This document shows positions 28,048-54,545 of a stretch of 59,240 nt of DNA, piece by piece. The stretch is taken from the NCBI GenBank assembly GCA_016210495.1, contig JACQUC010000264.1, positions 1 to 59,240 of the forward strand. Direction: 5' to 3'. The translations under genes were made by a program, and so were the position numbers. The first letter of the stretch is position 1, and each line of letters begins with the position of its first letter. Under the pieces are notes generated by a model. The model ran no database searches, had not been told where the DNA came from, and saw nothing but the letters and a program-made list of their open reading frames with translations. The DNA is from Chloroflexota bacterium (GTDB lineage Bacteria; Chloroflexota; FW602-bin22; JACPRP01).

Positions 28048-28058
28048 AGAGGGTGGGA

Positions 28059-29372: not shown

Positions 29373-29383
29373 GAGATGTGGCG

Positions 29384-31677: not shown

Positions 31678-34600
31678 ATGGGAAATACGCCCGCCCGATG
31701 GCCAAGGCGTTTGATCGAAGTTGACCTGCCCATCAAGCGCATCTCTAGCCATGCCAGCCGGGAGAAGTCAATACGCCACGGACATATCTCAACTCTGCAC
31801 ATTTGGTGGGCTCGACGGCCGCTGGCGGCTTGCCGCGCAGTGATCTGCGCGGCGTTGTGGCTTGATCCGGTAGATCGGAATTGCCCGCAATCTTTTCGAG
31901 AAGCGGCTACAGGCATCTTGTGTGAGTTTGCTGAGCAGGTACGGTCGGATCCTGTCCTAGCCGAGTTGTGCTTCTCGACATGGTCCCGTTGGATGCGCAC
32001 CAATACAGCCAGTCTTAAGTCAGGTGAGCCATCTTGCTGGCCGGATTTGCGATATGCCTTACTTGATTTTATCGCTGACTTCGCCAATTGGAAGGCATCT
32101 TGTGTGCCAGCTTTCACACATACTGCACAAGCTTTGACCGAAGCCGCTAATGTGGCGCTGGGTGGCGAACCAGGGACTAGGCCATTGGTGATTGATCCAT
32201 TCGCAGGGGGCGGCGCAATCCCACTTGAGGCGCTCAGAGTTGGCGCTGATGCCTTCGCGAGTGACCTAAACCCGGTGGCAGTATTGCTGAACAAGATCGC
32301 CCTGGAATACCTCCCGAAATATGGTCCGCAGCTCGCTACCGACGTTCGGTATTGGGGGGCCTGGATCAAGGAAAGGATTAAGGGGGAGTTGGATGAATTC
32401 TATCCACCGAATCAAGACGGCGAAACTCCCGTTGCCTACCTATGGGCGCGAACCATTCAATGCGAAGGACCAGCTTGCGGTGTAGAAGTACCGTTGATTC
32501 GCTCGCAATTGCTCGCACGAAGGGGCGCAAATTCAATCGTCTTAACACTGAACCCTGACGCGGAAAAGCAAAGAGTGAACATTGATTTGGCGTCTGGACG
32601 AACTGCGGGCTCGGATCAAGGAACTGTTCGTCGAGGTGCTGTGACTTGCCCGGTATGTGGCTACACAACTCCTGTGGAGAGGGTTCGCGCACAACTCAAA
32701 CAGTTACGAGGAGGGGTTGATGCAAGTCGTCTCTTAGCAGTAGTTGATCGGAATGCAGATGGCAAGAACTACCGCCTGCCCACCTTGATGGATGTTGAAG
32801 CAGTAGAAAGGGCGAGAAGGTTTGCGGACAGAGGAAGCATACTTCCGTCAACTGAGTTACCGTTGATGAGTGGCGTATTCAACGTGCCCATCTATGGGAT
32901 GGATCGATGGGATCTACTTTTCTCGTCACGCCAACTCGTCTCTGCCGATGCCATCGGTAGGGGGATCGACGCTGCGGTTCGCGAGATACAGGCGACGCGG
33001 GACAATGCCGACCTGGCACTTGCACTGAAGGTATTACTCGTGCTTGCACTCGATAAGTACCTGGACTTCCGAAGCTCACTGTGCGCTTGGATAAATGTTG
33101 GAGAGAAGATTGGACATACGTTTGGACGGCAGGCGCTTGGTATGATCTTCGATTGGGCTGAAGGAGTGCCGTTCGGCGACATCAGTGGTAGCTGGGAACG
33201 TTCCATTGAGTTCATCGCGGAGTTCCTTGCGACCGAGGGCAAATGTGGCCTAAACTGTGGCACGGTTGAGCAGGCACTTGCCCAGAATCATCCTTTACCG
33301 GATAGTTCGGCCCAGGCTTTTGTCACCGACCCTCCTTACTACAATGCGGTACCATACGCGGATCTTTCTGACTTCTTCTATCTGTGGCTGAAGAGACGAC
33401 TCGATCAAGATTTCCCAGATCTATTTGGCAGTAGCGTCGCTCCTAAGGCCGCAGAATTGTGCGAGATGCGTGGATGGGACCCTATAAGGTACCCAGAAAA
33501 AGGTGCGGCTTTCTACGAGGCAGGAATGAGGAGTGCTCTCTCTGAAGGGCGACGGTTGTGCGACGCATCAGGCATAGGAGTGGTCATATTTGCTCATAAG
33601 ACGACAGCAGGCTGGGAAAGTCTGCTGTCAGCACTAATTGACTCGGGATGGGTTATAACGGCATCGTGGCCTATTGACACAGAGCGGGGTGGTCGGCTTC
33701 GTGCCATGAACTCAGCAGCCTTGGCGTCATCTATCCATCTTGTGTGTCGGCCAAGAGTGACCGAGGACCCTTCATCCGTCGCAGAGAATGTAGGAGATTG
33801 GCGCGATGTCCTAGTGGAGTTGCCGAAGCGAATCCACGAGTGGTTGCCGATGCTTATTCAAGAGAGTGTCGTCGGAGCGGATGCTATCTTTGCCTGTATC
33901 GGACCTGCCTTAGAAATCTACTCAAAGTATTCTCGAGTCGAGAAGGCATCAGGCGCTGAAGTAAGACTTGCTGAATACCTAGAGTACGTATGGGCAGCAG
34001 TCGCAAAGGAAGCGCTAAATACGATCTTCAGGGAGGCGGACGCCACTGGCTTCGAGGAGGATGCCCGTCTGACGGCGATGTGGCTGTGGACGATATCAAC
34101 GGGCAACGGCAGCGCTGGAGTGAAAGAAACGAGTGGCTACGCGGCAGATGAAGAGGCTGGTGACGACAGTGAAAGCGGCGGCAAGAAGGCGGCGCCGGGG
34201 GGCTATACGCTGGAATACGACGCGGCCCGCAAGATCGGGCAGGGGTTGGGGGCGCACCTGGAAAAGCTGGGATATGTGGTCGAGGTAAAAGGCGGGTATG
34301 CGCGGCTGCTATCGGTGGCCGAGCGCACCCGCTATCTCTTCGGCAAAGAAGCGGGCCAGACGCCGGTCTCCAGAAAGCAGAAGCAGCCGCTCCAGTTGAG
34401 CCTGTTCGCCGAGCTTGTCGAGGCGGAAGAGGCGGCAGCGCACAGTGTGACCGGGGCGCCGCCAGCGGGTGCCACGGTGCTGGACCGCGTGCACCAGGCG
34501 ATGATACTGTTTGGGGCGGGTCGCTCGGAGGCATTGAAGCGTTTCTTGGTGGAAGATGGCGCCGGCAAGGAACAATCTTTCTGGCGTCTGGCGCAGGCTC

Positions 34601-34683
34601 TCTCGGCGCTCTACCCGGCCGGGAGTGATGAGAAGCGCTGGGTGGATGGGGTGCTGGCACGCAAGAAGAGCCTCGGGTTCTGA
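31678..34683 (+). CDS. DUF1156 Zn-ribbon adenine-specific DNA methylase (module A)
   Basis: 1001 residues. The N-terminal DUF1156 domain has the [10 protein letters not shown] and [20 protein letters not shown] signatures. SAM-binding motif I is DPFAGGGAIPLEA (~172-184), with [12 protein letters not shown] after it. A zinc ribbon has CEGPAC (~262) and CPVCGY (~324), and the catalytic DPPYYN is at ~551-555. It would methylate adenine in DNA, marking the host. The C-terminal ~300 residues are G/C-richer and better conserved with the flanking DUF499 gene than the middle part. The DUF499 gene starts 15 bases after its stop. Paralogue: 46164. Confidence 0.92.
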   Translation: MGNTPARWPRRLIEVDLPIKRISSHASREKSIRHGHISTLHIWWARRPLAACRAVICAALWLDPVDRNCPQSFREAATGILCEFAEQVRSDPVLAELCFSTWSRWMRTNTASLKSGEPSCWPDLRYALLDFIADFANWKASCVPAFTHTAQALTEAANVALGGEPGTRPLVIDPFAGGGAIPLEALRVGADAFASDLNPVAVLLNKIALEYLPKYGPQLATDVRYWGAWIKERIKGELDEFYPPNQDGETPVAYLWARTIQCEGPACGVEVPLIRSQLLARRGANSIVLTLNPDAEKQRVNIDLASGRTAGSDQGTVRRGAVTCPVCGYTTPVERVRAQLKQLRGGVDASRLLAVVDRNADGKNYRLPTLMDVEAVERARRFADRGSILPSTELPLMSGVFNVPIYGMDRWDLLFSSRQLVSADAIGRGIDAAVREIQATRDNADLALALKVLLVLALDKYLDFRSSLCAWINVGEKIGHTFGRQALGMIFDWAEGVPFGDISGSWERSIEFIAEFLATEGKCGLNCGTVEQALAQNHPLPDSSAQAFVTDPPYYNAVPYADLSDFFYLWLKRRLDQDFPDLFGSSVAPKAAELCEMRGWDPIRYPEKGAAFYEAGMRSALSEGRRLCDASGIGVVIFAHKTTAGWESLLSALIDSGWVITASWPIDTERGGRLRAMNSAALASSIHLVCRPRVTEDPSSVAENVGDWRDVLVELPKRIHEWLPMLIQESVVGADAIFACIGPALEIYSKYSRVEKASGAEVRLAEYLEYVWAAVAKEALNTIFREADATGFEEDARLTAMWLWTISTGNGSAGVKETSGYAADEEAGDDSESGGKKAAPGGYTLEYDAARKIGQGLGAHLEKLGYVVEVKGGYARLLSVAERTRYLFGKEAGQTPVSRKQKQPLQLSLFAELVEAEEAAAHSVTGAPPAGATVLDRVHQAMILFGAGRSEALKRFLVEDGAGKEQSFWRLAQALSALYPAGSDEKRWVDGVLARKKSLGF

Positions 34684-34698
34684 CGCAGGAGGCGTAAG

Positions 34699-37638
34699 AT
34701 GACCAAGCTCAAGCCGTGGTTCGACGTCGTCAAGCCCCGGGAGGACCTGCGGACCGGCAAACCCCTCGATGCCTCGGAGTTTGCCGTGCACCTCGAGCAC
34801 GTGCGCGAAAGGCGTGCGCCCGATGACTACCAGATTCCGGAGCGATTCTTCGAGCGCACCTACATAACCAGGACGCTGCGCGATCTGGCCGCCGAGGTCG
34901 TGCGCCGGCTGTCCGGCGAGAGGGTTGCCACGTCCGCCGTCTTCAACATGGCTACCCAGTTCGGCGGTGGCAAGACCCACGCCCTCACGCTGCTGTACCA
35001 CCTGGCCGCGGGCGGCCGCAACGCCGACTCGTGGCGCGGCGTGCGGGGAATCCTCAGCCAGGCCGGCGTGCCGGGCATCCCTGCGGCAGCGACCGCCGTT
35101 TTCGTGGGCACGGAGTTCGATTCACTATCCGGCAGGGGTGGCGATGACGGCAGCCCGCGCCGCCTGACCCCCTGGGGCGAGATTGGCTGGCAACTTGGCG
35201 GAGAAAACGGGTTCGAGCGGGTGGCCAGGCACGACGCGCAAGGGATCGCCCCGGCCGGGGATGTGATCCGTTCCTTCCTGCCCAGTGGGCCAACGCTGGT
35301 CCTGATGGACGAGCTGATGAACTACATCAGCCGCAATCGCAAGACGGGGCTGTCGGCGCAGCTCTACAATTTCCTGCACAACCTCGCGGAAGAAGCACGC
35401 GCTCGCGACAATCTGGCGCTGGTCGTTTCCATTCCAGCATCGGAGCTGGAGATGAACTCCGACGACCAACGGGACTACGAGTCCGTGAAGAAGCTGCTGG
35501 ATCGTGTCGGCAAGGCCGTCATAATGTCGGTGGAGACCGAAACGGCTGAGATCATCCGGCGCCGGCTGTTCGAGTGGGGTGGATTGCCCGAGGAGGGCGC
35601 GCGCACCTGCGCCGAGTACGCCGATTGGGCGATGGAGCATCACGAGATACTCGGGGATGCCGACATCGACACGATCAGAGAGAGATTCGCCGGCAGCTAT
35701 CCGTTTCATCCGGCGGTGCTGTCGGTGTTCGAGCGCAAGTGGCAAAGCCTGCCACGATTCCAGCGCACGCGGGGTGTCCTCAGGCTGCTGGCGCTGTGGG
35801 TATCGCGTGCCTACGAGTCGGGCTACAAGGGAGCGGAGCGTTGCCCATTGATCACGCTGGGATCGGCACCGCTGGAGGACTCTTACCTCCGGGCAGCCAT
35901 GTTCGAGCAGTTGGGCAGCGATGCCCTGGAAGGACCGGTCACAACCGACATCGCCAGCACCAAGGAGTGTAACGCGCAACGGCTGGACCGCGAAGCCAGT
36001 GAGGCGGTGAAGAAGGCTCGGCTGCATCAGAAGATCGCCACGGCGATCTTCTTCGAATCGAACGGTGGAATGACGAAGGCAGAAGCGACGTTGCCGGAGA
36101 TCCGCTTCGCCGTGGGCGAGCCCGATCTCGACATCGCCAATGTGGAGACGGCCCTCGATGCCCTGGTAGACTCCTGCTACTACCTCTCGGCGGAGCGGAA
36201 CCGGTACAGGTATAGCCTTACGCCCAATCTCAATAAGCTACTGACGGACCGCCGCGCTTCGGTGCAAGCGAAGTCTATCGAGGACCGGGTGCTGGAAGAA
36301 GTGCAATCTGTTTTCAGAGCCGGGCCCACGATCCCCGCTCGCGTCTACTTCCCGGAGAAGAGTGGCCAGATAGCGGATGTTGCCGTATTGACCCTGGTCG
36401 TGCTTGGGCCGGGCCGTCCGCTATCGGAGCCGGGAACGCCCAGGCTGATCGAGTCTCTGATTCGCGAGCACGGGCTGGCCGGCCGCACCTTCAAGAGCGC
36501 GCTCCTCTTCGCCGTGCCCGAAGGGACCAGCGCACTTCAGAACGAGGCACGGAACGGGCTGGCCTGGGAGGACATCGCCGGCGACGACGAGACGCTGAAG
36601 CGGCTCGACGATACGCAGTTGCGGCAGTTGAAGACAGGGCGCGAAAAGGCTGCACGGGACTTGAGGGAAGCGGTCTGGCGCACGTACAGGTACATCGCAC
36701 TGCTCGACAAAGACAACGCCCTGAAGGAGATCGACCTGGGCCTGGTCCACTCGAGCATGGCGGGCTCGCTGACCGAGGTTATCATCAATCGCCTGCGCCA
36801 GGACGACGAGATCACGGAAGCAGTGGGGCCGCATAAGCTGGTGCGCTACTGGCCGGCGGTAGCTGAGTGGAGCACCAGGGCTGCGCGCGATGCCTTCTTC
36901 TCGTCGCCGCTGCTGCCTCGCCTCATTGACCCGATGGCGATTCGCCGGACCATCGCCGATGGCGTGTCACAGAAGATCCTCGCCTACGTGGGCAAGGGCG
37001 CCGATGGCAAGCTCGAGCCATTCCACTTCGGAACAGCTCTTTCGGAGGCGGACATCGAAATCTCCAACGACATGTTTGTCCTCACTGCCGCGGAGGCCGC
37101 CAAGCACGTCGAACCGCCGCGGTTGGCGCGAGTGGAGCTGAAGCCCTCCTCGGCACAACTGCGTCCAGGCCAGGAGATGCAGTTCTCGGTGACGGCGTAC
37201 GACCAGCACGGTCGCCCTTTTCCGATAGACGCGCCGATGTGGTCGGCAAGTGGCGGTACGGTAGACCAGTCCGGGAGCTACGTTGCGGCTTCCACCCCCG
37301 GCTTCTACACCATCGCCGTCACATCGGGGGAGATCGGTGCGAGAGCGAACGTGCAGGTAGTGTCCGAGGACGCGCGGCCGAAGACGGGGCGTGGTGGAGA
37401 AGCAATCAAGCCTCCACCCAGAGCGGCGTCAGGGCTACGCTGGCAGGGTAACGTGCCCCACCAGAAGTGGATGAACTTCTATACGAAAGTGCTGTCACGC
37501 TTCGTCGGTATTCCGGGGCTGAGGCTGACGGTCGAGTTCGAGATACCACCAACGGACGCCGTTACCCAGTCCAAGGTAGAAGAAACCAGGACGGCCCTAC
37601 GTGAGCTTGGGCTCAATGAGGAGCTGGAAGTCACCTGA
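34699..37638 (+). CDS. DUF499 AAA-type ATPase with Ig-like domain (module A)
   Basis: 979 residues. The DUF499 ATPase core has Walker A QFGGGKTHAL (~86-95) and Walker B LVLMDELMNYI (~200). A middle helical part has the [19 protein letters not shown] signature. Residues ~810-887 form a bacterial Ig-like beta sandwich (VELKPSSAQLRPGQEMQFSV, then YTIAVTSGEI), unusual in a cytoplasmic ATPase. A terminal ~70-residue domain ends ALRELGLNEELEVT. DUF499 proteins recur with DUF1156 methylases in defence islands; their activity is not established. AGGAGG lies before the ATG. Confidence 0.9.
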   Translation: MTKLKPWFDVVKPREDLRTGKPLDASEFAVHLEHVRERRAPDDYQIPERFFERTYITRTLRDLAAEVVRRLSGERVATSAVFNMATQFGGGKTHALTLLYHLAAGGRNADSWRGVRGILSQAGVPGIPAAATAVFVGTEFDSLSGRGGDDGSPRRLTPWGEIGWQLGGENGFERVARHDAQGIAPAGDVIRSFLPSGPTLVLMDELMNYISRNRKTGLSAQLYNFLHNLAEEARARDNLALVVSIPASELEMNSDDQRDYESVKKLLDRVGKAVIMSVETETAEIIRRRLFEWGGLPEEGARTCAEYADWAMEHHEILGDADIDTIRERFAGSYPFHPAVLSVFERKWQSLPRFQRTRGVLRLLALWVSRAYESGYKGAERCPLITLGSAPLEDSYLRAAMFEQLGSDALEGPVTTDIASTKECNAQRLDREASEAVKKARLHQKIATAIFFESNGGMTKAEATLPEIRFAVGEPDLDIANVETALDALVDSCYYLSAERNRYRYSLTPNLNKLLTDRRASVQAKSIEDRVLEEVQSVFRAGPTIPARVYFPEKSGQIADVAVLTLVVLGPGRPLSEPGTPRLIESLIREHGLAGRTFKSALLFAVPEGTSALQNEARNGLAWEDIAGDDETLKRLDDTQLRQLKTGREKAARDLREAVWRTYRYIALLDKDNALKEIDLGLVHSSMAGSLTEVIINRLRQDDEITEAVGPHKLVRYWPAVAEWSTRAARDAFFSSPLLPRLIDPMAIRRTIADGVSQKILAYVGKGADGKLEPFHFGTALSEADIEISNDMFVLTAAEAAKHVEPPRLARVELKPSSAQLRPGQEMQFSVTAYDQHGRPFPIDAPMWSASGGTVDQSGSYVAASTPGFYTIAVTSGEIGARANVQVVSEDARPKTGRGGEAIKPPPRAASGLRWQGNVPHQKWMNFYTKVLSRFVGIPGLRLTVEFEIPPTDAVTQSKVEETRTALRELGLNEELEVT

Positions 37639-40447: not shown

Positions 40448-43400
40448 GTGCGCCTTGAAGACCTGATGCCGGGGATTTCGCTGATCGGCCTCGAACCTTC
40501 GGCGGTTGTGACGGTTGTCGCCGTCGTGTCCATCGCCGAGGGTGCTGTGCAGGTGATCTACAAGACGCCCGATGGTGCCCTCAAAGAGCGCCTGCTTGGA
40601 CGGGCCGACGAGGCGAATGTCGGCATCGCCACGCAGGAACGACCGTGGGCCTTCGACGGTGACGGAGAAGCCTTTCAGCTTGCGGTCGAGGCCAAGCGCA
40701 TCGACCTCGCCTTCCTTTTTGACCCCATGATGGCGGTGCACACCTCGAACGTGGAGCCGCTGCCACACCAGATCACGGCCGTTTACGAATCCATGCTGCC
40801 GCGCCAGCCCTTGCGCTTCGTCCTCGCCGACGACCCCGGGGCGGGCAAGACCATTATGGCAGGCCTCTACATCCGCGAGCTGATCATGCGCGCCGATGCC
40901 CGCCGTGTACTCATAGCCGCACCCGGCAGCCTCGTGGAGCAGTGGCGCGAGGAGATGTACGAGAAGTTCGGCCTGGAGTTCCGCATCTTTTCCAGTGAGC
41001 TCGAGGCCGCGTCGCCCAGCGGCAATCCCTTCGAGGACAACGACCACCTTATCGTCCGACTGGATCAGATGGCGCGCAACGAGGAGACACAGGAGAAGCT
41101 GTGCCACGCGGGATGGGACCTGGTCGTGTTCGATGAAGCCCATAAGCTCGCCGCCCATTACTTCGGCAGGGAGTTGAAGCGTACGAAGCGCTTCAACCTG
41201 GCCGAGAGAGTCGGCCAGCAGACGCGGCACCTCCTGTTGTTGACGGCAACGCCGCACAACGGCAAGGAGGAAGACTTCCAGCTTTTCCTTTCGCTGCTAG
41301 ATTCGGACCGTTTCTACGGCAAGTTCCGTGATGGCGTTCATAAGGTGGATACCTCCGACCTGATGCGCCGCATGGTGAAAGAGGAGCTGGTAAAGTTCGA
41401 CGGCACGCCACTCTTCCCAGAACGCAAGGCTTACACGGTGAACTACACGCTCTCCGATATCGAGGCGGCCCTGTACGAATCCGTTACACATTACGTGCAA
41501 ACGGAGATGGGCAAGGCCGATGCCCTGGATGGCAAGCGCAAAGGCTCCGTCGGCTGGGCACTGACCGCGCTCCAACGCCGGTTGGCATCGAGCCCCGAGG
41601 CGATCTTCCAGTCGCTCAAGCGTCGCAAGGAACGCCTTGAGGGCCGCCTGCGCGAGGAAAAGCTTGGCCAACGCGGACAGCAGATACTGGCCGAGACACT
41701 GGCCGATGTCCCCGAGGACGACGACGAACTGAATGCCGAGGAGCGGGAGAGCCTGGAGGAAACGCTGGTCGATCAGGCAACCGCCGCCCGTACTATCGCC
41801 GAGCTGGAGCAGGAAATCGTGGTTCTCCAGAGACTCGAACGCCAGGCGAAAGCCGTCGTCGTCTCTGGGCAGGACCGCAAGTGGGACGAGCTTTCCCGGA
41901 TCTTACAGAACGACCCCGCTATGCGCGATGCTGGCGGCCGCCAGCGCAAGCTCATCATCTTTTCCGAGCACCGCGACACTTTAAACTATCTCCAGCAGAA
42001 GATCGCGGGCGTGCTGGGGAACGCCGAGGCCATCGTCGGCATCCACGGCGGCACCCGCCGCGACGAGCGCCGCCGCTTGCAAGCGCTGTTTCGCTCTGAC
42101 CCGGACGTCCGCGTCCTGGTCGCTACCGACGCGGCCGGCGAAGGCGTGAACCTCCAGAACGCGAATCTGATGGTCAACTACGACCTGCCGTGGAATCCGA
42201 ATCGCCTGGAACAGCGCTTTGGGCGCATCCACCGCATCGGTCAACAGGAGGTCTGTCATCTCTGGAACCTCGTCGCCAGGGAAACCCGCGAGGGCGAGGT
42301 CTATCACCGGCTGCTGAAGAAGATCGAAGTCGAGTGCGAGGCTCTGAAAGGCCGCGTCTTCGACATCCTGGGCGAGGTCTTCGAGGATACGAGCCTCAAA
42401 GAGCTGCTCCTCCAGGCCATCCGTTACGGCGACCAGCCGGAGGTCCGTGCTCGTCTTGGCCAGCGCATCGAGAGCGCACTGGATCACGATCACCTGAAGG
42501 CCATTCTCGACCGCAACGCCCTGGCGCAGGAAACGATGAGTGCCGAGCGCCTCTTCGCCGTGAAGGAAGAGCTGGACAAGGCCGAGGCCCGCCGCCTCCA
42601 GCCGTATTTCGTCCGCTCCTACTTCATGAAAGCCTTCGCGGCTCTGGGTGGCTCCATGTACCCACGCGAGGCCGGGCGCTTCGAGATCACCCACGTCCCG
42701 GCCACCATCCGCGAGCGCGACCGCCTCATCACCGGCCGGAACCGCCGCGATCTTGCCCCCGTGCTAAAGCGCTACGAGCGAGTTTGTTTCACCAAGGAAG
42801 CCGTCCGCCCGCTGGACAAGCCGGGCGTCCCGTTCGCCGTCATGCTCCATCCTGGCCACCCGCTCATGCTCGCCATTAGCGATTTGCTGCTGGAGCAGCA
42901 CGCCAATCTGCTGCGGCAGGGCACAGTGCTGCTGGACCCGGCCGACGATGGCGAGGAGCCGCATCTGCTGTTCCTTTTGACGCACGAAGTCAAATCGGGC
43001 GATGGTCAGTTGCTTTCGAAGCGGCTGCAGTTTGTGCGAGTGGCACCCGATGGCTCGTCCGCGTTCGCCGGTTGGGCGCCGCACCTTGACCTCGAGCCGG
43101 TAGGCGCCGCCGACCGTGCGCTCCTCAGGGACGTGCTGAGCGCGTCTTGGATTAGCGTCGACCAGGAACAGCGCGCCCTCGCCCTTGCCGCCGCCACGCT
43201 GGTGCCGGAACATTACCAGGAGGTCGCCGCCCGTCGCATCGCCCACGTAGACAAGACCCTGGCTGCCGTTCACGAGCGGCTCACCAAGGAGATCGACTTC
43301 TGGTCTGACCGCTGGCTCAGGCTCAGGGAAGACCAGGAAGCCGGCCGGGACGTCCGCCTCAACCTCGAAAACGCCCGCCGCATCGTCGCCGACCTCGAAG

Positions 43401-43957
43401 GGCGTCTTGAAAACCGCAAGCGGGAGTTGATGGCGATGCGCCACGTCACCTCGGCCACGCCGGTTGCGCTGGGCGGCGTGCTGGTAGTGCCGGCCGGCTT
43501 GCTCCGCCGCCTGCGCGGCGAAGCGCCCGCCGCGGATGGCGCCGTCTTCGCCGCCGACGCCGTTGCTCGCGCGCGCGTCGAGCGCCTGGCGATGGACGCG
43601 GTGCGCCGGGTCGAGGAAGCCCGCGGCTGCCGTGTCGTGGACGTCTCGGCCCAGAAGTGCGGCTGGGACATCACATCCTATCCTCCCACCCTGGACGGCA
43701 GGCAACTCCAGGCGCGACACATCGAGGTCAAGGGCCGCGTGAAGGGCGCCAGCACCGTCACGATCAGTCGCAACGAAATGCTCTACGCGTTGAACCAGTC
43801 GGACAAATTCATCCTCGCCATTGTGCTCGTGGACGAGGGTGACAAAACAGATGGCCCGTGGTATATTCATAATCCATTTGACCAAGAACCCGGCTGGGGA
43901 GTCTCCTCCATCAACTTTGACATTCAGGAATTTCTGAAAAGAGGAGAACATCGATGA
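40448..43957 (+). CDS. SNF2/HepA-type helicase with C-terminal DUF3883 (defence module B)
   Basis: 1169 residues. Same architecture as 24607: [13 protein letters not shown], Walker A DDPGAGKT (~128-135), [23 protein letters not shown], then [14 protein letters not shown] and the [14 protein letters not shown] motif VI of the second RecA domain. A coiled, Glu/Arg-rich insert follows the first domain (~400-470). The DUF3883 tail is GWDITSY ... [10 protein letters not shown], again with an Asp...Glu-Val-Lys pattern. The two helicases are clearly homologous but diverged, so they are not a recent duplication. The GTG start follows AAAGGAGCCTCGC. The AlbA_2 gene follows after 30 bases. Confidence 0.92.
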
Positions 43958-43987: not shown

Positions 43988-45172
43988 ATGTTAACCGAGG
44001 ACGAACTGAGAGAACTGTTATCAAATCTGGAAGCTGATAATGTTGAGCGCACCGAGTCCGTGAGTGATAGGGACAAATTTGGTGAGGCAATCTGCGCTTT
44101 TGCCAACGACCTTCCTAATCATCGCCGTCCAGGCTATCTACTAATTGGGGTTAGGAATAACGGAACGCTTTCCGGACTGGTGGTATCTGATGATCTCTTG
44201 ACCAACCTCGGAGGAATTCGTTCTGAGGGAAATATTCTGCCTCAACCGCTCATAAATGTAGCCAGATTCTCTCTCAGTGGCGGGGATGTGGCCGTTGTGG
44301 AGGTGCATCCATCCGATCTTCCCCCTGTACGATACAAAGGCCGTGTTTGTATTCGAGTGGGACCCCGCAAGGCAATCGCCAACGAACAAGAAGAACGAGT
44401 ACTCACGGAACGGCGCGTCGCCCGGGCACGCTCCTTTGACGCACGCCCCTGTCTCGAAGCGACGATTGATGACCTGGCGCTCGGGCAATTTGACGCTTAC
44501 CGGCGCGAGGCGGTTGATCGGGAAACCGTTTTGACCAACGAACGACCAGTCGAACAACAGATGGCATCCTTAAGACTCTATGACCCGGAACGCGCCTGCC
44601 CAACGTACGCGGGTATCTTGCTGTTCGGGAAAAACCCCTGTTTCTTTCTGCCGGGCGCCTATGTCCAATACCTCAAGTTGCCCGGCACCGACCTGACTGA
44701 CGTGCCTGAAGACCAAGCGGAAATATCCGGTGACCTCCATTCTGTGTTGCGCGAACTGGAGGGTCGGGTTAAGGGCCTGATACAAACGGAGATGCGTGCT
44801 GTCAGCCCGCTTGAAGAAAAGTTGCTCCCGGATTATCCTGAGTGGGCGTTGCGCGAGCTATTGATGAATGCGGTCATGCACCGGAACTACGACAGCAACA
44901 CCCCCATCAGGTTTTATGTCTTTAGTGATCACGTCGAGATTCAGAGTCCAGGGGGATTGTATGGAGAGGCCACCCCTGAGAACTTTCCTTTTCGTGACAG
45001 CTACCGCAATCCCATCATAGCTGAAGCGATGAAATCCCTCGGCTTTGTGAATCGGTTTGGCTACGGCGTTCAGCGGGCACAGGCGCTGCTGGCAAAAAAC
45101 GGAAGCCCTCCTGCCCAATTCGAATTCGATGAGCACACAGTGTTGGTCAAGGTGTACCGGAGGACCGTATGA
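43988..45172 (+). CDS. AlbA_2 (Schlafen-like) and HATPase domain protein
   Basis: 394 residues. The N-terminal AlbA_2/Schlafen-type domain (~10-125: ESVSDRDKFGEAICAFAND, GYLLIGVRNNGTLSGL, VRYKGRVCIRVGPRK) is followed by a C-terminal RecG-like HATPase_c_4 domain with the Asn box ALRELLMNAVMHRNYD and a Gly loop ending NRFGYGVQRAQ. Such proteins are usually annotated as ATP-binding transcriptional regulators and are frequent in defence islands. It may sense or regulate the module (inference). The stop overlaps the start of the ParA-like gene (ATGA), so the two are translationally coupled. Confidence 0.85.
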   Translation: MLTEDELRELLSNLEADNVERTESVSDRDKFGEAICAFANDLPNHRRPGYLLIGVRNNGTLSGLVVSDDLLTNLGGIRSEGNILPQPLINVARFSLSGGDVAVVEVHPSDLPPVRYKGRVCIRVGPRKAIANEQEERVLTERRVARARSFDARPCLEATIDDLALGQFDAYRREAVDRETVLTNERPVEQQMASLRLYDPERACPTYAGILLFGKNPCFFLPGAYVQYLKLPGTDLTDVPEDQAEISGDLHSVLRELEGRVKGLIQTEMRAVSPLEEKLLPDYPEWALRELLMNAVMHRNYDSNTPIRFYVFSDHVEIQSPGGLYGEATPENFPFRDSYRNPIIAEAMKSLGFVNRFGYGVQRAQALLAKNGSPPAQFEFDEHTVLVKVYRRTV

Positions 45173-46152
45173 AGACGATCGCATTCTTTAACCACAAGGG
45201 CGGAGTGGGTAAGACTTCACTTGTGTACCATCTAGCGTGGATGTTCGCACACCGCGGGTTAAAGACGCTGGCCGTCGATCTAGACCCGCAAGCCAACCTG
45301 ACTGCCGTGTTCTTGGATGAAGATTGCATCGAGAGCTTGTGGCCTGATGATGAGCACGCAGACACGGTCTTCGGCGCCATCCTCCCGATTCTCCGTGGGA
45401 CCGGCGACATCGCTGAACCCCACGTGGAAAAGATCACCGAGAATCTCGGCCTCATTCCCGGCGACCTGGGACTATCACGGTTTGAAGACAAGCTATCGGA
45501 CGCGTGGCCCCGTTGCCACAATCGCGACGAATCCGCTTTTCGCACGATGACGGCGTTTCATCGCCTTATCCAGCGCGGCGCGAACTGGGGCGCAGAACTC
45601 GTGTTGATTGACGTAGGACCCAACCTAGGCGCCATCAACCGCTCGGCTCTCATATCTTCCGATAAGGTTTGCTTGCCGCTCGCGCCGGACCTCTTCTCTC
45701 TGCAAGGCCTCAAGAACCTGGGGCCAACATTGCGCGAATGGCGCACTATTTGGTCCGATCTTTTCACCAAAGCGCCACGTGATCTGCCGATGCCCAGAGG
45801 CAGTATGCAGCCTATCGGCTACGTTGTCATGCAGCATGGAATATTCGGCACTAGGCCGGTTAAGGCATACAAGAGATGGATGGATCGTATTCCGAGTGTT
45901 TATCGAGAAGCTGTGCTTGACGAAGATATTAGGTTCGCGCCCGCTGTGGGAGATGATCCGTACTGCCTTTCCTTGCTCAAGCATTATCGAAGTCTGATGT
46001 CGATGGCAATGGAGGTGCGCAAGCCGATTTTTTTTCTAAAATCTGCTGACGGCGCAATCGGCGCTCACATCGAAGCGGTCAAAAGCTCTTACGTCGATTT
46101 TCAAAAGCTTGCTGCAAAGATAGCAGCGAAAGCTGGCATCGCGTTTGTTTGA
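45169..46152 (+). CDS. ParA-like ATPase
   Basis: 327 residues. ParA/MinD-type deviant Walker A KGGVGKTS at residues 10-17, in [20 protein letters not shown], then [15 protein letters not shown] (switch I region) and [20 protein letters not shown] (Walker B). No ParB partner or partition site is seen, so plasmid segregation is unlikely. Coupled to the AlbA_2 gene upstream and overlapping the frame of the methylase downstream, it belongs to the defence module. It may use ATP-dependent dimerisation as a switch; function unknown. Confidence 0.88.
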
Positions 46153-46163
46153 TTTTGAGGCGA

Positions 46164-49100
46164 ATGATGCTGTACCCGGTCAAGTCTCCCCGCAAGCTCA
46201 TCGAGGTGGCACTGCCGCTCGACGCCATCAATGCCGCTGCATCGCGGGAGAAGTCCATCCGGCACGGGCATCCCAGCACGCTGCATCTCTGGTGGGCGCG
46301 GCGCCCGCTGGCGGCAGCGCGGGCCGTCATCTTCTCTCAGTTGGTGAATGATCCTTCCTGGAAGTGGGAGATGGAAAACCCTGGCCAGGTCCCTCCGGGG
46401 AACCTCAAGGCTTCCTGGGCGGCCAGCCGCAAGCGTCTCTTCAAGATCATCGAGGACCTCGTGCTGTGGGAGAACACCACTAACGAGGAAGTCCTGGAGC
46501 GCGCCCGCGCCGAGATTCGCCGCTCGTGGCGCGAGGTGTGCGAGCTGAACAAAGACCACCCGGATGCTGCCGATCTGTTCGACCCGGAGAAGCTGCCCGC
46601 GCTGCACGACCCCTTTGCCGGCGGCGGGTCGATTCCGCTGGAGGCACAGCGGCTGGGGCTGGAGGCCTACGCCTCGGACCTCAATCCCGTGGCCGTGCTG
46701 ATCAACAAGGCGATGATCGAGATTCCGCCGAGGTTTGCGGGGAGGACGCCGGTTTGTTTGGGCCTACGCGAACGCGCCAAGGATGGTGTAGAGCAAGGGG
46801 ATTTTCTTCGTGACTTGACGGCTTCGCGTGACTCGTGGCCTGGGGCAACCGGGCTGGCGGAGGACGTGCGCTACTACGGGGCGTGGATGCGGGAGGAGGC
46901 ACAGAAGCGAATCGGGCACCTGTACCCCAGGGTGGAGGTTGTGCAGGAGAGCGATGGGTCTTACCGGCACGCTACGGAGGAGGATAGGCGGGCGGGACGC
47001 CCGCGCTCCCGGCTTACGGTCATCGCGTGGCTGTGGGCGCGCACGGTGAAGAGTCCCAACCCGGCGTTCTCGCACGTGGACGTGCCGCTAGCCGCCACGT
47101 TCATCCTCTCCAGCAAGCCGGGCAAAGAGGCCTACGTGCAGCCAATCGTGAACGGCGACCGCTACCATTTCACCGTGAAGATGGGCACGCCGCCGCCGGA
47201 GGCCGAGGATGGCACGAAAGCGAAGGGTCGTGGGGCTAACTTCCGCTGTATCATCTCTGATGTGCCTATCAGCGGTGACTATATCAAAGCCGAAGGGCAG
47301 GCCGGGAGGATGGGTGCAAAGCTCATGGCCGTAGTTGCAGAGGGCTCAAGGGGGCGCATTTATTTGGCACCGACGGCCGACATGGAGGCCATCGCCCGGA
47401 AAGCTGAGCCGGTCTGGAAACCGAGCGGCGAAGTTCCTGCCCGACTTACGGGCGGCACCTGTGTGCCTTACGGCCTCCGTGAATGGGGCGATCTCTTCAC
47501 CCCCCGCCAGTTGGTCGCGCTGACGACGTTCAGCGATCTGGTGACGGAGGCGCGGGAGAAGATCCGGGAGGACTACCTGGGAGCGCGGGCGTCTCGCCCG
47601 CAAAAAACACGCCCGCAAGAAACCTGGCACTCCCGCGGCTACCTCCCCCATTACGAAGCCGGCGAAGTCCCCCAGCACATCGTCTTTCGTCTGCACGACA
47701 GCCTACCGGCTGCCCTACGGGAGCGTTGGGAGACGGAGCTCGCACAAGTACCCGAAAAAGAGCGCGACTTGCAGCGCCGTAAGCGCATCGAGCAAGCCCT
47801 GGATGAGGGACGGGGCGCGTGCTGGCTCAGGAATCCGGAGATCGCCGACACGGTAGAAGGCGCCTTGCTGCACTTCCACGGCGAGCGTTACCACCTGCAC
47901 GCGTGGGTGATTATGCCCAACCACGTGCACGCGCTTGTTACGCCGCTGCACGGCAATAGCCTTTCCTCGATCCTCCACTCCTGGAAATCCTATACGGCAA
48001 AAGAAGCCAATCGCCTTTTGCAGCGTGAGGGTGTATTCTGGCAGGAGGAGTACTTCGACCGGGCGATTCGGAACGAGGATCATTTCAACCAGGCAGTTGA
48101 GTACATTGAAAGCAACCCGGTGATGGTAGGATTGGTGAAAGCGCCGGAGGAGTGGGGGTGGGGGAGCGCGTGTTGGGGAGAGGAAAAGCGGGCGGGACGC
48201 CCGCGCTCCCGGGACGACGTCCCTCTCGACGCCAGCGGCACGGGGGCGCGGGCGTATGCCGAGGCGGTGAGTGTGTATCTTGGCATGGCGCTTAGCCGAC
48301 TAACCGACATCTGTAATTCGCTCTGCCGGTGGGAAACCTCCAAAACGCAGGTCCGTAACCTGTTTAGTCGCCAGGCGATCCCAATGCTTTGGGATTTTGC
48401 CGAGAACAATGTTTTCGCAGAGGCTGCTGGTGATTACGGAGTAAGCCTTGGAAACCTGATCAAGGCGCTTGAGCGCGTGCCCAACAAAGGAACAGGGGTA
48501 GTTGTACAAGCCGATGCGCAGGCTCAGGAGATTTCCTCTGGCAAGTTCATTTCGACAGATCCGCCGTATTACGACAACATCGGTTACGCCGACCTCTCGG
48601 ACTTCTTTTATGTGTGGTTGAGGAGAACGGTTCGATCATACCTGCCTTCCGTTTTTGCAACGATGGCGGTCCCCAAGGCCGAGGAGTTGATTGCCAATCC
48701 CTACCGACATGGAAGCAAGGACAGGGCAGAAGAGTTTTTCTTGAATGGCATGACGCGTGCTCTACACCGTCTAGCGCTCCAGGGGCATCCATCTGCCCCG
48801 ATCACGATATACTATGCTTTCAAGCAGTCAGAGACGGAGTCGGATTTAGCGACCACTTCAACCGGGTGGGAAACATTCTTGGAGGCGCTAAACCGAGCCG
48901 GATTGCAGCTTTCGGGAACTTGGCCGATGAGAACCGAACTGGAAAATAGGCCCATTTCGAGCGGCACTAACGCCCTCGCCTCCAGCATCGTCCTCGTCTG
49001 CCGCAAGCGTCCTGACGATGCGCCGACCGTTTCTCGCCGGGAGTTTTTGCGGGAGTTGAATGCCGTGCTGCCGGAGGCGCTGGACGAGATGACGAGGGGC

Positions 49101-49754
49101 TCGGGCGATGATCGTTCGCCGGTGGCGCCGGTGGATTTGTCGCAGGCGATCATCGGGCCGGGGATGGCGGTGTTCTCCAAGTACGCGGCTGTGCTGGAGG
49201 CGGACGGTACGCCGATGAGCGTGCGGACGGCGCTGCAGCTCATCAATCGGTTCCTGGCCGAGGACGATTTCGACGCGGACACGCAGTTCTGTCTGCACTG
49301 GTTCGAGCAGCACGGCTGGAGCGGGGGCCGCTACGGCGATGCCGACACCCTCTCGCGCGCGAAGGGCACCAGCGTGGATGGCATGCGGGACGCGGGGGTC
49401 GTCGAATCGGGCGGTGGCGTCGTGCGCCTGCGGAGGTGGTCGGAGTACGCCGCTGGCTGGGACCCGAAGACGGACACGCGAAACCCGGTTTGGGAGACGC
49501 TGCACCATCTTGTACGCGCGTTGAAGCAGGAGGGCGATGCCGGCGCGGGAAGGCTTCTTGCCAGCGTGCAAGCCCAGGCAGAAGCGACCCGCCAGCTCGC
49601 GTATCGGCTTTATACGCTCTGTGAGCGGCAGGGGTGGGCCGAGGACGCGCGGGGATACAACGAGCTGATCACGAGTTGGGCGGGGATCGAGGCGGCCGCG
49701 GGCTCTGACGAAACCTCGCAACTGCATTTGTTTGAGCAGACTGGAGACCATTGA
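46164..49754 (+). CDS. DUF1156 adenine methylase interrupted in frame by a RAYT transposase (module B)
   Basis: About 1197 residues. DUF1156 start: [20 protein letters not shown] and [20 protein letters not shown]. Motif I is [13 protein letters not shown] (~149-161), and the catalytic [20 protein letters not shown] begins at ~799. Between them, residues ~472-683 are foreign: a whole REP-associated tyrosine transposase, entered by the REP-encoded GARASRP and left by AGRPRSR. A further REP copy (46988-47010) encodes RRAGRPRSR at ~275-283. The frame stays open throughout, so either a chimeric protein is made or the insertion is recent. Whether the methylase still works is unknown. ATG 46164 or 46167 lies behind GAGG; the end abuts the ATPase gene (TGATG). 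Confidence 0.9.
46988..47010. repeat. REP unit inside the methylase gene
   Basis: A single reverse-oriented REP unit (core GGCGGGACGCC, then CGCGCTCCC) inserted in frame. It encodes AGRPRSR in a stretch where the module A methylase has no counterpart. Confidence 0.8.
47579..48210 (+). mobile_element. RAYT (TnpA_REP, HUH transposase) flanked by inverted REP units
   Basis: It is bounded by a forward REP unit (47579-47601) and a reverse REP unit (48188-48210). The enclosed ~190 codons form a complete [24 protein letters not shown] at the start, the HUH motif MPNHVHAL (His residues at 47922 and 47928), and the catalytic Tyr in [16 protein letters not shown] (48051). RAYTs are single-strand transposases related to IS200/IS605 that move REP palindromes. 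The element lies in frame with the host methylase and has no clear start codon of its own. Confidence 0.88.
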
Positions 49755-50839
49755 TGCTAAAATCGCTGCACCTGGAAAACTTCACTGTCTTTCCCGACGC
49801 CAGGTTTGAGTTTGGCAGGCATCTCAACGTCGTGGTCGGTGAAAACGGCCTCGGCAAGACGCACGCGCTCAAGGCGGCGTATTGCGTGCTTGCAGTAAGC
49901 GCCAGTGGGGCGAAAGATTCTGGTAGCGATAGTCCTACAAAAGCATATCTTCAAACGGCGATCGCGAATAAGCTGCGCAATGTGTTCAAACCCGATACAA
50001 TTGGTCGGCTTGCCCGACGCCAAGCCGGCCGCAATCGATGCGAGGTCGAATGCAGTTTTGATGACAAGAAGTTCGATCTTGCGTTTTCGTTTAACACGGC
50101 GAGCAAAAGCGAGGTTACCATCGACAAGATGCCTTCGGCGTGGATTGGAGAGGTGCCGGTCTACCTGCCCACTCGGGAGCTGCTCACGATCTATCCCGGC
50201 TTCGTTTCCATCTATGAGACAACGCATCTGCCGTTTCCAGAGACGTGGAGGGACACGGCAATATTGCTCGGGGTGCCAACGGCCAGGGGCCCACGTGAAA
50301 AGAAGATCCGGGAGCTTCTAGCGCCTCTGGAGAAGGCGATGGACGGCAGTGTGGAACTGGATGAATCGGGCCGATTCTCCCTATACACAAGGACGGGGCG
50401 GTTCGAGATGCATCTGGTGGCGGAAGGGCTCAGGAAACTCGCTATGATCGCACGCCTGATTGCAAGTGGCTCGCTCCTCGACAAAGGATACCTTTTTTGG
50501 GACGAACCGGATGCCAATCTGAATCCGAAGCTGGTAAGACTGGTCGCTCGCACCATCGTCGACATCGCCCAGAGCGGCATCCAGGTGTTCATCGCCACCC
50601 ACAGTCTGTTCCTGTTGCGTGAGCTGCACATCCTACAGCAGTCCATCGAAAAGAACGAGCGCAGACCACTTTTCGAAGGACTGGACAACCGTTTCTTTGG
50701 ATTGCACTTGAAGGCGGGTGGCGTCGAGGTAACTCAGGGCAAGACGATGGACGATATCGGCAATATCAGCGCGCTGGACGAGGAGCTCGCGCAGTCTGAG
50801 CGCTATCTCGAGATGGAGAGCAAGCTTACAACGGCTTAG
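49754..50839 (+). CDS. RecF/OLD-like AAA ATPase (module B)
   Basis: 361 residues. ABC-type ATPase fold of the SMC/RecF/OLD kind without a long coiled coil: Walker A GENGLGKT (29-36) in FGRHLNVVVGENGLGKTHAL, a signature-like LVAEGLRKLAMIARL, Walker B LFWDEPDANLNP (Asp ~250, Glu 251), and the switch His in FIATHSLFLLRE (~281). There is no Toprim domain, so it is not a full OLD nuclease. The small nuclease-like gene follows after 18 bases, suggesting a two-subunit ATPase-nuclease. The start overlaps the methylase stop by one base (TGATG). Confidence 0.85.
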   Translation: MLKSLHLENFTVFPDARFEFGRHLNVVVGENGLGKTHALKAAYCVLAVSASGAKDSGSDSPTKAYLQTAIANKLRNVFKPDTIGRLARRQAGRNRCEVECSFDDKKFDLAFSFNTASKSEVTIDKMPSAWIGEVPVYLPTRELLTIYPGFVSIYETTHLPFPETWRDTAILLGVPTARGPREKKIRELLAPLEKAMDGSVELDESGRFSLYTRTGRFEMHLVAEGLRKLAMIARLIASGSLLDKGYLFWDEPDANLNPKLVRLVARTIVDIAQSGIQVFIATHSLFLLRELHILQQSIEKNERRPLFEGLDNRFFGLHLKAGGVEVTQGKTMDDIGNISALDEELAQSERYLEMESKLTTA

Positions 50840-51440: not shown

Positions 51441-51548
51441 GGGAGCGCAGGCGTCTCGCCTGCCGGCCCCCTTGCAGGCGAGACGCCTGCGCTCCCGGGG
51501 CCCCCTTGCAGGCGAGACGCCTGCGCTCCCGGGGACGCCTGCGCTCCC
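51441..51548. repeat. REP cluster (one forward, two and a half reverse units)
   Basis: Forward unit 51441-51463; reverse units 51474-51496 and 51508-51530; partial reverse unit 51535-51548. It fills the gap between the nuclease-like and DUF499 genes of module B. Confidence 0.88.
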
Positions 51549-51597
51549 GGCACAACGCGGCCGTGTCTCGAATGGGTCGCGTTAGAAAGGATTCGCA

Positions 51598-54414
51598 ATG
51601 ACTCTCAAGCCCTGGCGTGAAGTTGCTGTTCCTCACCCCGACGTGCTGGAAGGCACGTTTCAGCAGGCGGAGTTTGCCGCGGACATCACGGCCGTGCGCA
51701 CAGGCCGGGCGACGCGGGAGTACCAGGATGCCGTCGCGTTCTTTGACCGCACGTTTATCACCGACGGCATGGGCATACTGCTGACGCAGGTGGCACAGCG
51801 GCTGAACGGCAGGGGTGGCGAGCCGGTGGTCCAGCTCCAGACAGCCTTTGGCGGCGGCAAGACGCATACCTTGCTGGCGGTCTATCACCTCGCGGTACGG
51901 CAGTGCGCGCTCGACGACCTGGCGGGCATCCCGGCTTTGATCGACCGGGCCGGGCTGATGGACGTGCCACGGGCGCGCGTCGCCGTGCTGGACGGCAACG
52001 CGCATGCCCCTGGTCAGCCGTGGAGGAACGGCGACAAGGGCGTGCGTACGCTCTGGGGTGAGCTGGCGTGGCAACTGGGTGGAGAAGAGGCTTTTGCGCT
52101 CGTCAAGGAGGCCGATGCCACCGGTACCTCGCCCGGTAAAGAGGTGCTCAAAACGCTCCTCGAGACCTATGCCCCGTGCGTGGTGCTAATTGATGAGCTG
52201 GTGGCCTACATCCGGCAGTTTCCGGACGGTCAGCACCTGAGCGGTGGTAGCTTCGACAGCAATCTATCGTTCGTACAGGCCCTCACCGAGGCGTGCAAGC
52301 TCGTGCCCAACTCCATTCTCTTGGCTTCGCTGCCCGAATCGGCGGCGGAAGCCGGGAGCCAGCGCGGTGTGGCCGCGCTCCGGTCTTTGGAGACATACTT
52401 CGCGCGGATTCAGGCGCTCTGGAAGCCCGTGGCGACCGAGGAGGCCTTCGAGATCGTGCGGCGCCGTCTGTTTGAGCCGGTGCGCGACGAGAGAGCGCGC
52501 GAGGTGGTCTGTCGTGCCTTTGCAGAGGCTTACGTGGACGAGGGGGCGAAGATGCCCAGCGAAACGCAGGAGGCGCGGTATTTCGACCGGCTCGTGCAGG
52601 CCTACCCGATCCACCCGGAAGTGTTCGACCGGCTTTACGAAGACTGGTCGACCATTGATGGCTTCCAGCGCACGCGCGGCGTGCTCAAGCTGATGGCTAA
52701 GGTGATCTACCGCCTATGGAAGGATGACAATAAGGACCTGATGATCATGCCAGGCAGCCTGCCACTTTACGACGGCAGCTCGCGCAATGAATTGAGCTAC
52801 TATTTGCCCGCGGGCTGGGATGCAGTGTTGGAGGGGGACATCGATGGCGACCGGGCGGAGACGACCGAGCTGGAAATCAAGGAGCCGCGCTTCGGCGCCG
52901 TCAACGCCGCCCGGCGCGTGGCGCGCACGATCTTTCTGGGCAGTGTGCCCTCTTCGGTGGCGACCAGGCCCGGCATCCGCGGCGTCGACCGAGCCCGCGT
53001 GCTGCTCGGCTGCCTTCAGCCCGGCCAGCCCTCTTCCACGTACTCCGATGCACTAAACCGCCTTGCCGACCGACTGCACTACCTCAACAGCTCCGGTGAG
53101 AAAGCGCAGGACACAACGCGGTTCTGGTTCGACACCCGCGCCAACCTGCGCCGCGAGATGGAGGAGAGGAAGAGGCGCTTTGACGACAAGACCGAAGTGC
53201 GCAGCAAGCTGGCCGGAGTGCTGAAGAAGCTGGCTACTGGGGCGACGTTCTTCGACGGCGTCCACATCTTTACGCCTCACGCGGACGTGCCGGACGACAG
53301 CGCGCTCCACCTCGTTCTGCTGGCGCCCGAGCAGTTCTACGCTCGCGAAGAGACCCGCCTGGCCTGCGATGCCGTGCTGGATTACGTGCGCAACAACGGC
53401 GCCAAGCCTCGCTACCGGGGCAACCGGCTGGTCTTCCTTGCTGCCGACCACGGGTCGCTGGCGCGCCTGCGGGACTGCATTCGGGTGGCGCTGGCCTGGG
53501 ATTCCATCGTCGAGGACGTCAAAGAGGGTCGCCTGAACATCGACCAGCTCCAGAAGAGACAGGCCGAGAAAGAGCTCGATGGCGCTGAGCAGGTGCTGCC
53601 ACGGGCGGCCCGCGAGTGCTACCGGTGGCTCCTGTGCCCGATGCAGCATGCGCCGACCGACCCCAGGCCGGCGGTCGAGGCGTTCCCGCTGAACACCGGG
53701 GGCTCGTCGCTCGGCAGCGAGATGGAGCGCGTCTGTGTGGAGAACGAGCTGGTGATCTCCACCTGGTCGCCCATCCACCTGCGCAGCAAGCTGAAGGAGC
53801 TTTACTGGAAGCCCGATAAGCCGGCCATCGGAGCGCTGGCGTTCTGGGAGGACACACTCCGCTATCTCTACATGCCGCGCCTGAAGACCCGCGACGTGCT
53901 GCAGCGAGCCATCGCCACGGGCGCGGCCAGCCGCGATTTCTTCGGCACGGCCTACGGCCAGCACGAAGGTAGGTTCGACGGCTTCAAGCTGGGTGTTGCC
54001 AACGTCCAGCTCGACGACACGCTGCTGCTGATAGAGCCGGAAGCGGCACAGCGATACGAGGCCGCACAGGTTCCGCCTCCTGCTCCCGGGGGTGGCTACA
54101 CGTCAGACGGGTCAGGTGAGCCGCCAGGCACAGTTAACGAAACCCCGGCGGGCACGGCGCCCACAGAGGGGGGTGGGGCACCAAGGGCGCGCACGTTCAT
54201 CGGGACGGCCGACGTGAATGCGGCAACGGCCAAGATGCGCCTGGTGCAAATCGCCGACGAGGTCATCAGCCTCCTTACCGGCGACGCCCAAGCCACGGTG
54301 AAAGTCAGCGTGGAAATCACAGCCGATTTCCCCGAAGGGGTGTCCGATCAGGTTAAGAGAGCCGTTTCCGAAAACGCGACGAGTCTAGGGTTCAAGAATA
54401 AGACGTGGGAGTAG
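51598..54414 (+). CDS. DUF499 AAA-type ATPase (module B)
   Basis: 938 residues. Walker [11 protein letters not shown] (~83-92) and Walker [13 protein letters not shown] (~195-206), followed by the same middle signature as module A ([19 protein letters not shown]). The C-terminal region differs: instead of an Ig-like domain there is a Pro/Gly-rich linker (~825-860), then a terminal domain with [20 protein letters not shown] that matches the end of the module A protein. AAAGGA precedes the ATG. It is probably the third core component of the module; biochemical role unknown. Confidence 0.9.
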
Positions 54415-54490: not shown

Positions 54491-54545
54491 GGGAGCGCAG
54501 GCGTCTCGCCTGCCCGTCTCCTCGCGGGCGAGACGCCCGCGCCCC
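54491..54545. repeat. REP/BIME palindrome at the end of module B
   Basis: Forward unit 54491-54513 and reverse unit 54524-54545 with a 10-base loop, 75 bases after the DUF499 stop. Together with the copy at 40211 it brackets module B. Confidence 0.85.

Follow-up and report, generated by a model that had tools for sequence, protein, structure and literature searches.

The DNA analysed here, called the window throughout, is a stretch of 59,240 nucleotides from a Chloroflexota bacterium (contig JACQUC010000264.1). Judged by its genes, it contains a complete Hma / Type-1 BREX-related locus, a predicted defence system, because one of its products scores as HmaB and is flanked by HmaA and by the HmaC/DUF499 ATPase (Table 1). 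All three core genes of such systems (helicase, DUF1156 methylase and DUF499 ATPase) are present in the window, and a second Hma-type locus at 24607-37638 comprises an HmaA-like helicase, a DUF1156 methylase and a DUF499 ATPase. The methylase of the second locus is free of the insert that is the subject of this study, a REP-associated tyrosine transposase (RAYT) lying inside the HmaB gene of the first. Hma-type DUF1156 methylases and their TRD insert have been described, in a paper whose main text makes no mention of RAYT, Y1_Tnp, transposase or HUH; the embedded RAYT sets the enzyme of the window apart from the Hma methylases as described there (PMC12839542).

Table 1. Genes and features predicted in and around the chimeric methylase gene (positions in nucleotides of the window).
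Feature	Position	Strand	Evidence or remark
Inverted REP pair, related variant, REPIN-like, upstream of HmaA	40212..40265		
HmaA SNF2-family helicase, C-terminal NOV_C domain	40448..43957	+	PADLOC HmaA 2035.5 bits; Pfam
Schlafen/AlbA_2 protein with HATPase_c_4 domain, inside the locus	43988..45172	+	Pfam
ParA-like ATPase, inside the locus	45169..46152	+	Pfam AAA_31
DUF1156/HmaB N6-adenine methylase ORF with embedded RAYT	46149..49754	+	1201 aa; ORF list, Pfam, NCBIfam, PADLOC
N-terminal methylase part: DUF1156, SAM motif I (DPFAGGG), start of TRD-type insert	46149..47576	+	Pfam; 74.9% identity to intact P0122, 471 aa
Lone REP unit, in-frame RRAGRPRSR	46980..47012		94% identity over 33 nt to right-end REP; direct repeat with 48180-48212
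Left REP of element	47577..47601		translated LGARASRP; inverted repeat
RAYT core (WHSRGYLPH ... PNHVH ... VEYIESNP ... WGSA)	47625..48170	+	NCBIfam; model; fold match 4ER8 TnpAREP
Right REP of element	48188..48212		translated RAGRPRSR; inverted repeat
C-terminal methylase part: remaining TRD-type insert, DPPYY motif, C-terminal region	48213..49754	+	77.8% identity to intact P0122, 496 aa
AAA_21 ATPase, PADLOC HEC-02B	49751..50839	+	481.9 bits
REP cluster, related variant, upstream of HmaC	51442..51550		
HmaC / DUF499 ATPase	51598..54414	+	PADLOC HmaC 1429.7 bits; Pfam DUF499
Inverted REP pair directly downstream of HmaC	54492..54545		

The methylase ORF (46149-49754, plus strand) is a single frame without a stop from end to end, and an element composed of a REP unit, the RAYT and a second REP unit occupies 47577-48212, in frame. 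The original prediction had placed a complete RAYT with HUH motif and catalytic tyrosine at 47579..48210 inside a defence methylase. Its coordinates prove correct to a few bases, and the ORF, Pfam and NCBIfam agree on its content: the RAYT carries PNHVH and the tyrosine of VEYIESNP, and DPFAGGG and DPPYY lie on opposite sides of the insert, which separates SAM motif I from the DPPY region as had been proposed. In the chimera, Pfam places DUF1156 at residues 21-100 and Y1_Tnp at residues 581-656 (34.1 bits, cut-off 23), with a MethyltransfD12-like match at residues 148-191 that falls slightly under its cut-off (21.5 bits against 22). The NCBIfam model of REP-associated tyrosine transposases (NF047646, cut-off 80) gives 91.4 bits for the whole ORF and 94.8 bits for the insert alone. 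PADLOC HmaB matches the chimera with 1646.6 bits, split into two stretches, and an intact relative, P0122, with 1715.5 bits in one stretch; the NCBIfam antiphage DUF1156 model gives the chimera 125.7 bits, far under its cut-off of 1000.

There is no stop codon between the RAYT and the methylase. The in-frame start-like codons nearest to the beginning of the RAYT are GTG at 47541, in methylase sequence, and TTG at 47769, well within the RAYT; 47544-47768 holds none in frame, and no ATG lies near the RAYT start. The RAYT of the window has no evident start or stop of its own, so co-translation of RAYT and methylase as one protein should be the simplest reading.

The ends of the element form an inverted repeat of 36 nt (47566-47601 against 48188-48223) that is 83% complementary, and across 22 nt the two REPs differ by one base. 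Entry through a forward REP read as GARASRP and exit through a reverse REP read as AGRPRSR, as first suggested, are borne out by this repeat and by its translations. Two flanking REPs in inverted orientation are given as a feature of RAYTs, and a GT(A/G)G head is described for Stenotrophomonas and other REPs, in the same source (PMC2817692). The former is found in the window; the ends read CTGGGAGCGCGGGC, with neither GTAG nor GTGG beside either of them. The third REP in the methylase frame, at 46980-47012, had been overlooked. Two further copies of the same family, at 19-40 and 91-112 of the window, adjoin an ORF on the minus strand (126-1796). The 22-nt REP pattern was built from the window's own two ends, without a shuffle control; a 13-nt pattern with three mismatches allowed was dropped, as its 71 matches were no excess over a shuffle mean of 62.

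REP-type peptides stand to the left of 105 and to the right of 80 of 124 embedded RAYTs. At 5,000 random places in intact methylases, the left pattern occurs in 0.3% and the right pattern in 0.2%, both patterns having been composed after the junctions had been inspected. The presence of REP-type peptides at RAYT junctions is not chance. It had also been proposed that REP ends readable in frame help such elements to live in coding DNA. This idea gains some support: the 27-nt REP stretches are free of stops in all six frames, as short GC-rich stretches often are anyway, and the ends of some chimeras read the REP in other frames.

A model of the RAYT alone (pLDDT 89.7, pTM 0.83) is least sure at the REP-encoded ends and has the TnpAREP fold, its best fold match being TnpAREP 4ER8 (E 3.6e-9; TM 0.62 by target and 0.50 by query), which is also the only PDB sequence match to the RAYT at E 1e-3. 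The AlphaFold model of the whole chimera is poor (pLDDT 63.5, pTM 0.40), too low to judge whether the RAYT loops out.

The orthologous methylase without the insert exists. The second DUF1156 gene of the window, considered first as a close empty-site copy, has just about 30% identity, and P0122 was taken instead. This intact protein is 75% identical to the chimera on the left of the insert (up to P0122 residue 454) and 78% identical on the right (from residue 474), and intact orthologues align right up to both edges. Their loop typically reads DALAAGLPDDG...GGTGAxAYAEAV, and that of chimeras typically has a stretch of 27 residues followed by GGxGAxAYA; by this comparison, some five or six residues are replaced or displaced by the element. 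The domain might have been native methylase sequence, found in relatives without REP units, and what was found instead are intact relatives without the domain. Many close methylases have no RAYT.

The same arrangement recurs widely. A protein search scored on the RAYT region alone, among proteins 0.55-1.75 times as long as the chimera, gave 717 matches. The best 120 of these include the window's own; DUF1156 sequence flanks the RAYT, on one side or both, in 118 of them, and the remaining two hosts are an Eco57I/MmeI-type methylase (P0055) and a class I tRNA synthetase (P0119). We mapped 130 RAYT places in 126 proteins, among 223 proteins listed. One loop, site A, holds 107 of the 130 (101 placed by both flanks, six by one flank only), site B (reference 190-215) holds seven, other positions in DUF1156 proteins 14 and other proteins two; four of the 126 proteins carry two RAYTs. 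Among the best 80 loci of a genome scan, the RAYT lies inside a long ORF in 17, of which 14 are DUF1156 genes and three are other DNA methylases (L021 and L025, N6_N4_Mtase; L027, MmeI-type); the others are a truncated DUF1156 chimera (L049) and 62 loci without an ORF longer than 470 aa around the RAYT. P0122-like methylase sequence stands beside the RAYT in 15 of these 80 loci, on the same strand each time, and on both sides with both junctions in frame in 13. Broken copies occur as well, L049 being without the C-terminal methylase part and L056 having a frame change near the C-terminus. In 13 of 18 genomes chosen for their chimeras, there is no further match to the window RAYT at E 1e-10.

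Several peculiarities of these methylases were noted in passing. P0143 and P0175 have a different insert at site A, a DUF559 nuclease-like domain (by domain scan in P0143) that follows a NPSPQRGEVGRGE peptide; the loop may be open to passengers of different kinds. P0163 is a DUF1156 methylase with a PP2C phosphatase domain fused to its N-terminus. To the right of site A, after ...VYL, the sequences seem to be assembled from a few exchangeable modules, as though parts of the TRD were swapped between alleles.

Phylogenies point away from a single origin. In a tree of 192 methylases, the window's methylase is nested among intact ones (a group of 66, of which 62 are intact and four chimeric; support 97), and the label intact or chimeric changes at least eight times; in a 53-row tree under a mixture model it changes seven times, four of them forced. 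These counts fit gain or precise loss alike, and the sampling, drawn from best matches, is biased to relatives of the window. The AU test rejected a single ancestral fusion at site A: a tree that forces the 18 site-A chimeras together is 310 lnL units worse (p=1.02e-5). In a RAYT tree of 321 rows, embedded and free-standing copies are interleaved, with at least 27 changes, nine forced by well-supported branches. The trees thus indicate that the site-A pattern is one of repeated gains or clean losses, and recurrence at the same site could stem from exchange between methylase genes rather than from new insertion.

Close siblings bear on the same question. Between G907 and G949 (Acidobacteriota), the RAYT DNA is 96-100% identical in 100-column windows, and the adjoining DNA 64-78% (left side) and 41-64% (right side), rising again farther out. 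The siblings L119/L120 have a RAYT dS of 0 against host values of 0.15 and 0.63; a Chloracidobacterium thermophilum protein gives a 100% match to the host part of L119. Recent spread of the RAYT would leave a pattern like that of G907/G949, and so would recombination in the surrounding TRD region. A RAYT that is nearly identical between diverged flanks, together with chimeras that do not form one clade, may fit homing or recombination alike.

Embedded RAYTs appear to be under selection as proteins. Among 321 RAYTs, 148 of 150 embedded copies and all 171 free ones retain HxH and the tyrosine, proportions inflated by searches that favour conserved words; a catalytic residue is missing in the other two embedded copies. 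By a regular-expression motif test, 58 of 68 long-ORF copies pass and ten fail. The NG86 method was usable for seven of 15 RAYT pairs, eight giving no value. Three pairs yield dN/dS of 0.084 (L001/L002), 0.092 (L020/L031) and 0.088 (L021/L025), in each case below that of the host parts, which is low too; the four others yield 0.037, 0.169, 0.211 and 0.292, at dS above 1.5. An in-frame ATG within 25 codons upstream is found for four of the 17 embedded copies among the best 80 loci, 12 of the 68 long-ORF copies and 36 of 63 free-standing RAYTs; when GTG and TTG are also allowed, the numbers are eight, 34 and 43, and internal starts may be possible for some copies. Selection at the amino-acid level implies that the RAYT is translated and, where no start codon is close, this would most simply happen through translation of the host.

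RAYTs also reside in genes of quite other kinds. A census with the window RAYT covered 1,279 genomes of four phyla, identified from named loci in them, a copy being counted as embedded when it lies in a stop-free ORF of at least 600 aa. It found 49 matches, five of them embedded, in 400 genomes of Chloroflexota (E 1e-15) and, at E 1e-30, 61 matches (12 embedded) in 297 genomes of Acidobacteriota, 77 (13) in 294 of Planctomycetota and 108 (32) in 288 of the phylum of the Kiritimatiellae genome G014. In total, 62 of 295 matches are embedded, five of these 62 in the four centre genomes that had been picked for holding a chimera, without which the proportion is 57 of 290. A scan of 369 genomes from the class to which G001 belongs gave four matches at E 1e-35, the sole embedded one being that of G001 itself, the centre genome of that set. 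Methylase or restriction genes, identified from Pfam domains or from resemblance to a member so scanned, harbour 26 of the 62 embedded copies (eight in DUF1156 genes); the other 36 lie in other genes, mostly housekeeping, one of them without host identity. Confinement of the RAYT to methylases was thereby rejected. Hosts recognisable on both sides include ValRS, LeuRS, AlaRS, carbamoyl-phosphate synthase, HypF, exonuclease VII, PurH, poly(A) polymerase, an AMP-binding (Acs-like) enzyme, MetH, PriA and HsdR; L215, L234 and L240 are terminal fusions, not insertions.

Within a host family, the site is often the same across genomes to within about 25 residues (AlaRS three of three, LeuRS four of four, PriA two of two, MetH two of two, Acs-like four of five, radical-SAM three of four), a pattern for which vertical descent is also possible. 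The sites differ in MmeI (three of three) and HsdR (two of two), and six of eight Eco57I-type hosts agree within 40 residues. G1650, G1616 and G1613 each yield one LeuRS (E 1e-20), free of stops and holding the RAYT, further matches to the LeuRS query spanning only the RAYT stretch, and G1148 and G1127 likewise each yield one such AlaRS; these interrupted synthetases are apparently the sole copies. The LeuRS match of G1610 has one stop, and the AlaRS of G1200 is split across two frames. In the LeuRS of L221, the RAYT lies between the counterparts of residues 374 and 379 in Thermus LeuRS 1H3N. Further REP-like peptides (EGFQPS...RRQDAF) seem to sit in other loops of the same protein, at ORF residues ~321-336 and ~1045-1065.

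We consider it probable that the REP-RAYT-REP element is an in-frame, co-translated passenger of a working defence methylase, comparable to an intein that does not splice. The element would sit in the TRD-type insert, in a loop filled by a few residues in intact enzymes (DAL-AAGLP-DDG), and its REP ends would be translated as short linkers. We expect the methylase to fold around a looped-out RAYT and keep its activity, so that selection for defence would also maintain the element and transfer of defence genes would spread it. Entry into the site might occur by single-strand transposition or by recombination between methylase genes, and the relation would have arisen repeatedly, in the site-A loop, in other DUF1156 loops, in other restriction-modification genes and in housekeeping genes. 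The sequences show the in-frame structure, the use of one site in many methylases that do not form one clade, the retention of catalytic residues and the low dN/dS in three pairs. From these we infer that the fusion protein would be made and left uncut and the methylase be active, and that the RAYT may still process REPs and the element still be mobile.

The RAYT of the window resembles those of known RAYT / TnpAREP REPtrons in its HUH motif and tyrosine, its score above the family cut-off, its two inverted REPs and its closest structure, 4ER8; it differs in lying inside another gene without a stop, with relatives in many genes. It shares the Y1 HUH transposase fold with IS200/IS605 transposons, but the NCBIfam IS200 model gives 19.4 and 23 bits, far under the cut-off of 55. 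Inteins lie in frame in conserved genes, recur at the same sites and are patchily distributed. Embedded RAYTs are like them in all these respects and unlike them in having no splicing domain and an HUH nuclease as catalytic module, so that the host must work while the insert is present. In-frame intragenic REPs and Rickettsia palindromic elements (RPE) were reported in 2013 in real genes such as uvrA, recB and tRNA synthetases; that report puts these palindromes within genes at no more than 82 encoded residues, with no transposase mentioned in the section that treats them (PMC3733652), whereas here a whole RAYT is present, with REP linkers at both ends. In the literature searched (subscription papers and preprints lay outside its scope) no account was found of whole RAYTs as in-frame residents of other genes.

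Of the other explanations, domestication ranks first, though it is unlikely. The RAYT would have been captured by DUF1156 methylases and now have a job, such as binding or nicking single-stranded DNA near the TRD or helping TRD exchange, with the REPs as relics. Its kept catalytic residues, dN/dS near 0.09 in three pairs and position within the TRD-type region would suit such a role, as would the concentration of the closest RAYTs in DNA methylases (all 17 long-ORF copies among the best 80 loci) and the sibling pair in which the adjacent TRD sequence differs and the RAYT is nearly identical. Yet many close methylases do without it, the chimeras are not one clade, free-standing RAYTs interleave with embedded ones and most tested junctions have REP-type peptides; and hosts such as AlaRS, LeuRS, PriA and MetH are hard to square with a methylase function.

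Removal of the insert at the RNA or protein level, by splicing or by ribosomes bypassing the paired REP ends, would leave an intact mature methylase and would at once explain the apparently sole essential host genes; inverted-repeat REP ends would be able to draw both ends of the insert close to each other. We nevertheless find it highly doubtful. Pfam scans of the window protein and of the scanned hosts report no self-splicing domain, we know of no splicing by HUH enzymes, and the low dN/dS indicates that embedded RAYTs are translated, the window RAYT being without a close start codon.

That the insertion is fresh or decaying and the methylase inactive, with a frame that is open by accident and for a short time, is highly improbable too. 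The REP ends do differ at just one base in 22 nt, as in a young element, and some relatives are broken (L049), but the methylase halves remain 75-78% identical to intact P0122 with their motifs kept, the HmaB score of the chimera almost equals that of P0122, one loop holds in-frame copies at 107 of the 130 mapped places, and dN/dS is low in RAYT and hosts. The original alternative of a tolerated chimera or a fresh insertion is better recast: tolerance stands, and the passenger is best described as recurrent and co-translated, being widespread, at the same site, not one clade and of low dN/dS in three pairs. An assembly chimera of a RAYT contig and a methylase contig, conceivable as repeats such as REPs can misguide assemblers, is so very unlikely as to be negligible, because junctions of the same type occur in many independent records, including multi-megabase contigs (G907, G949, G226).

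The reading as a co-translated passenger can be widened, tentatively and with somewhat less than an even chance of being right, to a clade of RAYTs that forms a selfish, non-splicing, intein-like class. Its members would have ends that are free of stops in any frame, would have lost start and stop codons, and would home as single strands into fixed loops of conserved proteins, DNA methylases first and also LeuRS, AlaRS and PriA, whose folded products would carry an active HUH nuclease.

RAYTs are regarded as companions of palindromes that lie between genes. One account characterises them as domesticated transposase genes, present in one copy and inherited vertically (PMC8049555), and a few long RAYT proteins were set aside as 'gene fusions or annotation errors' in a family survey (PMC6006769). 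Against this view, the present findings would place RAYTs repeatedly and in frame within host proteins, some of them enzymes indispensable to the cell. The findings also have a bearing on annotation: many RAYT-sized proteins bear the source name 'putative DNA methylase', which has probably spread to them from methylase-RAYT chimeras. Embedded RAYTs would mark out, as a natural record, the loops of conserved enzymes that tolerate insertion, and would offer a possible reason for the spread of such elements by defence genes and a directly testable case of a transposase that survives through fusion to host proteins.
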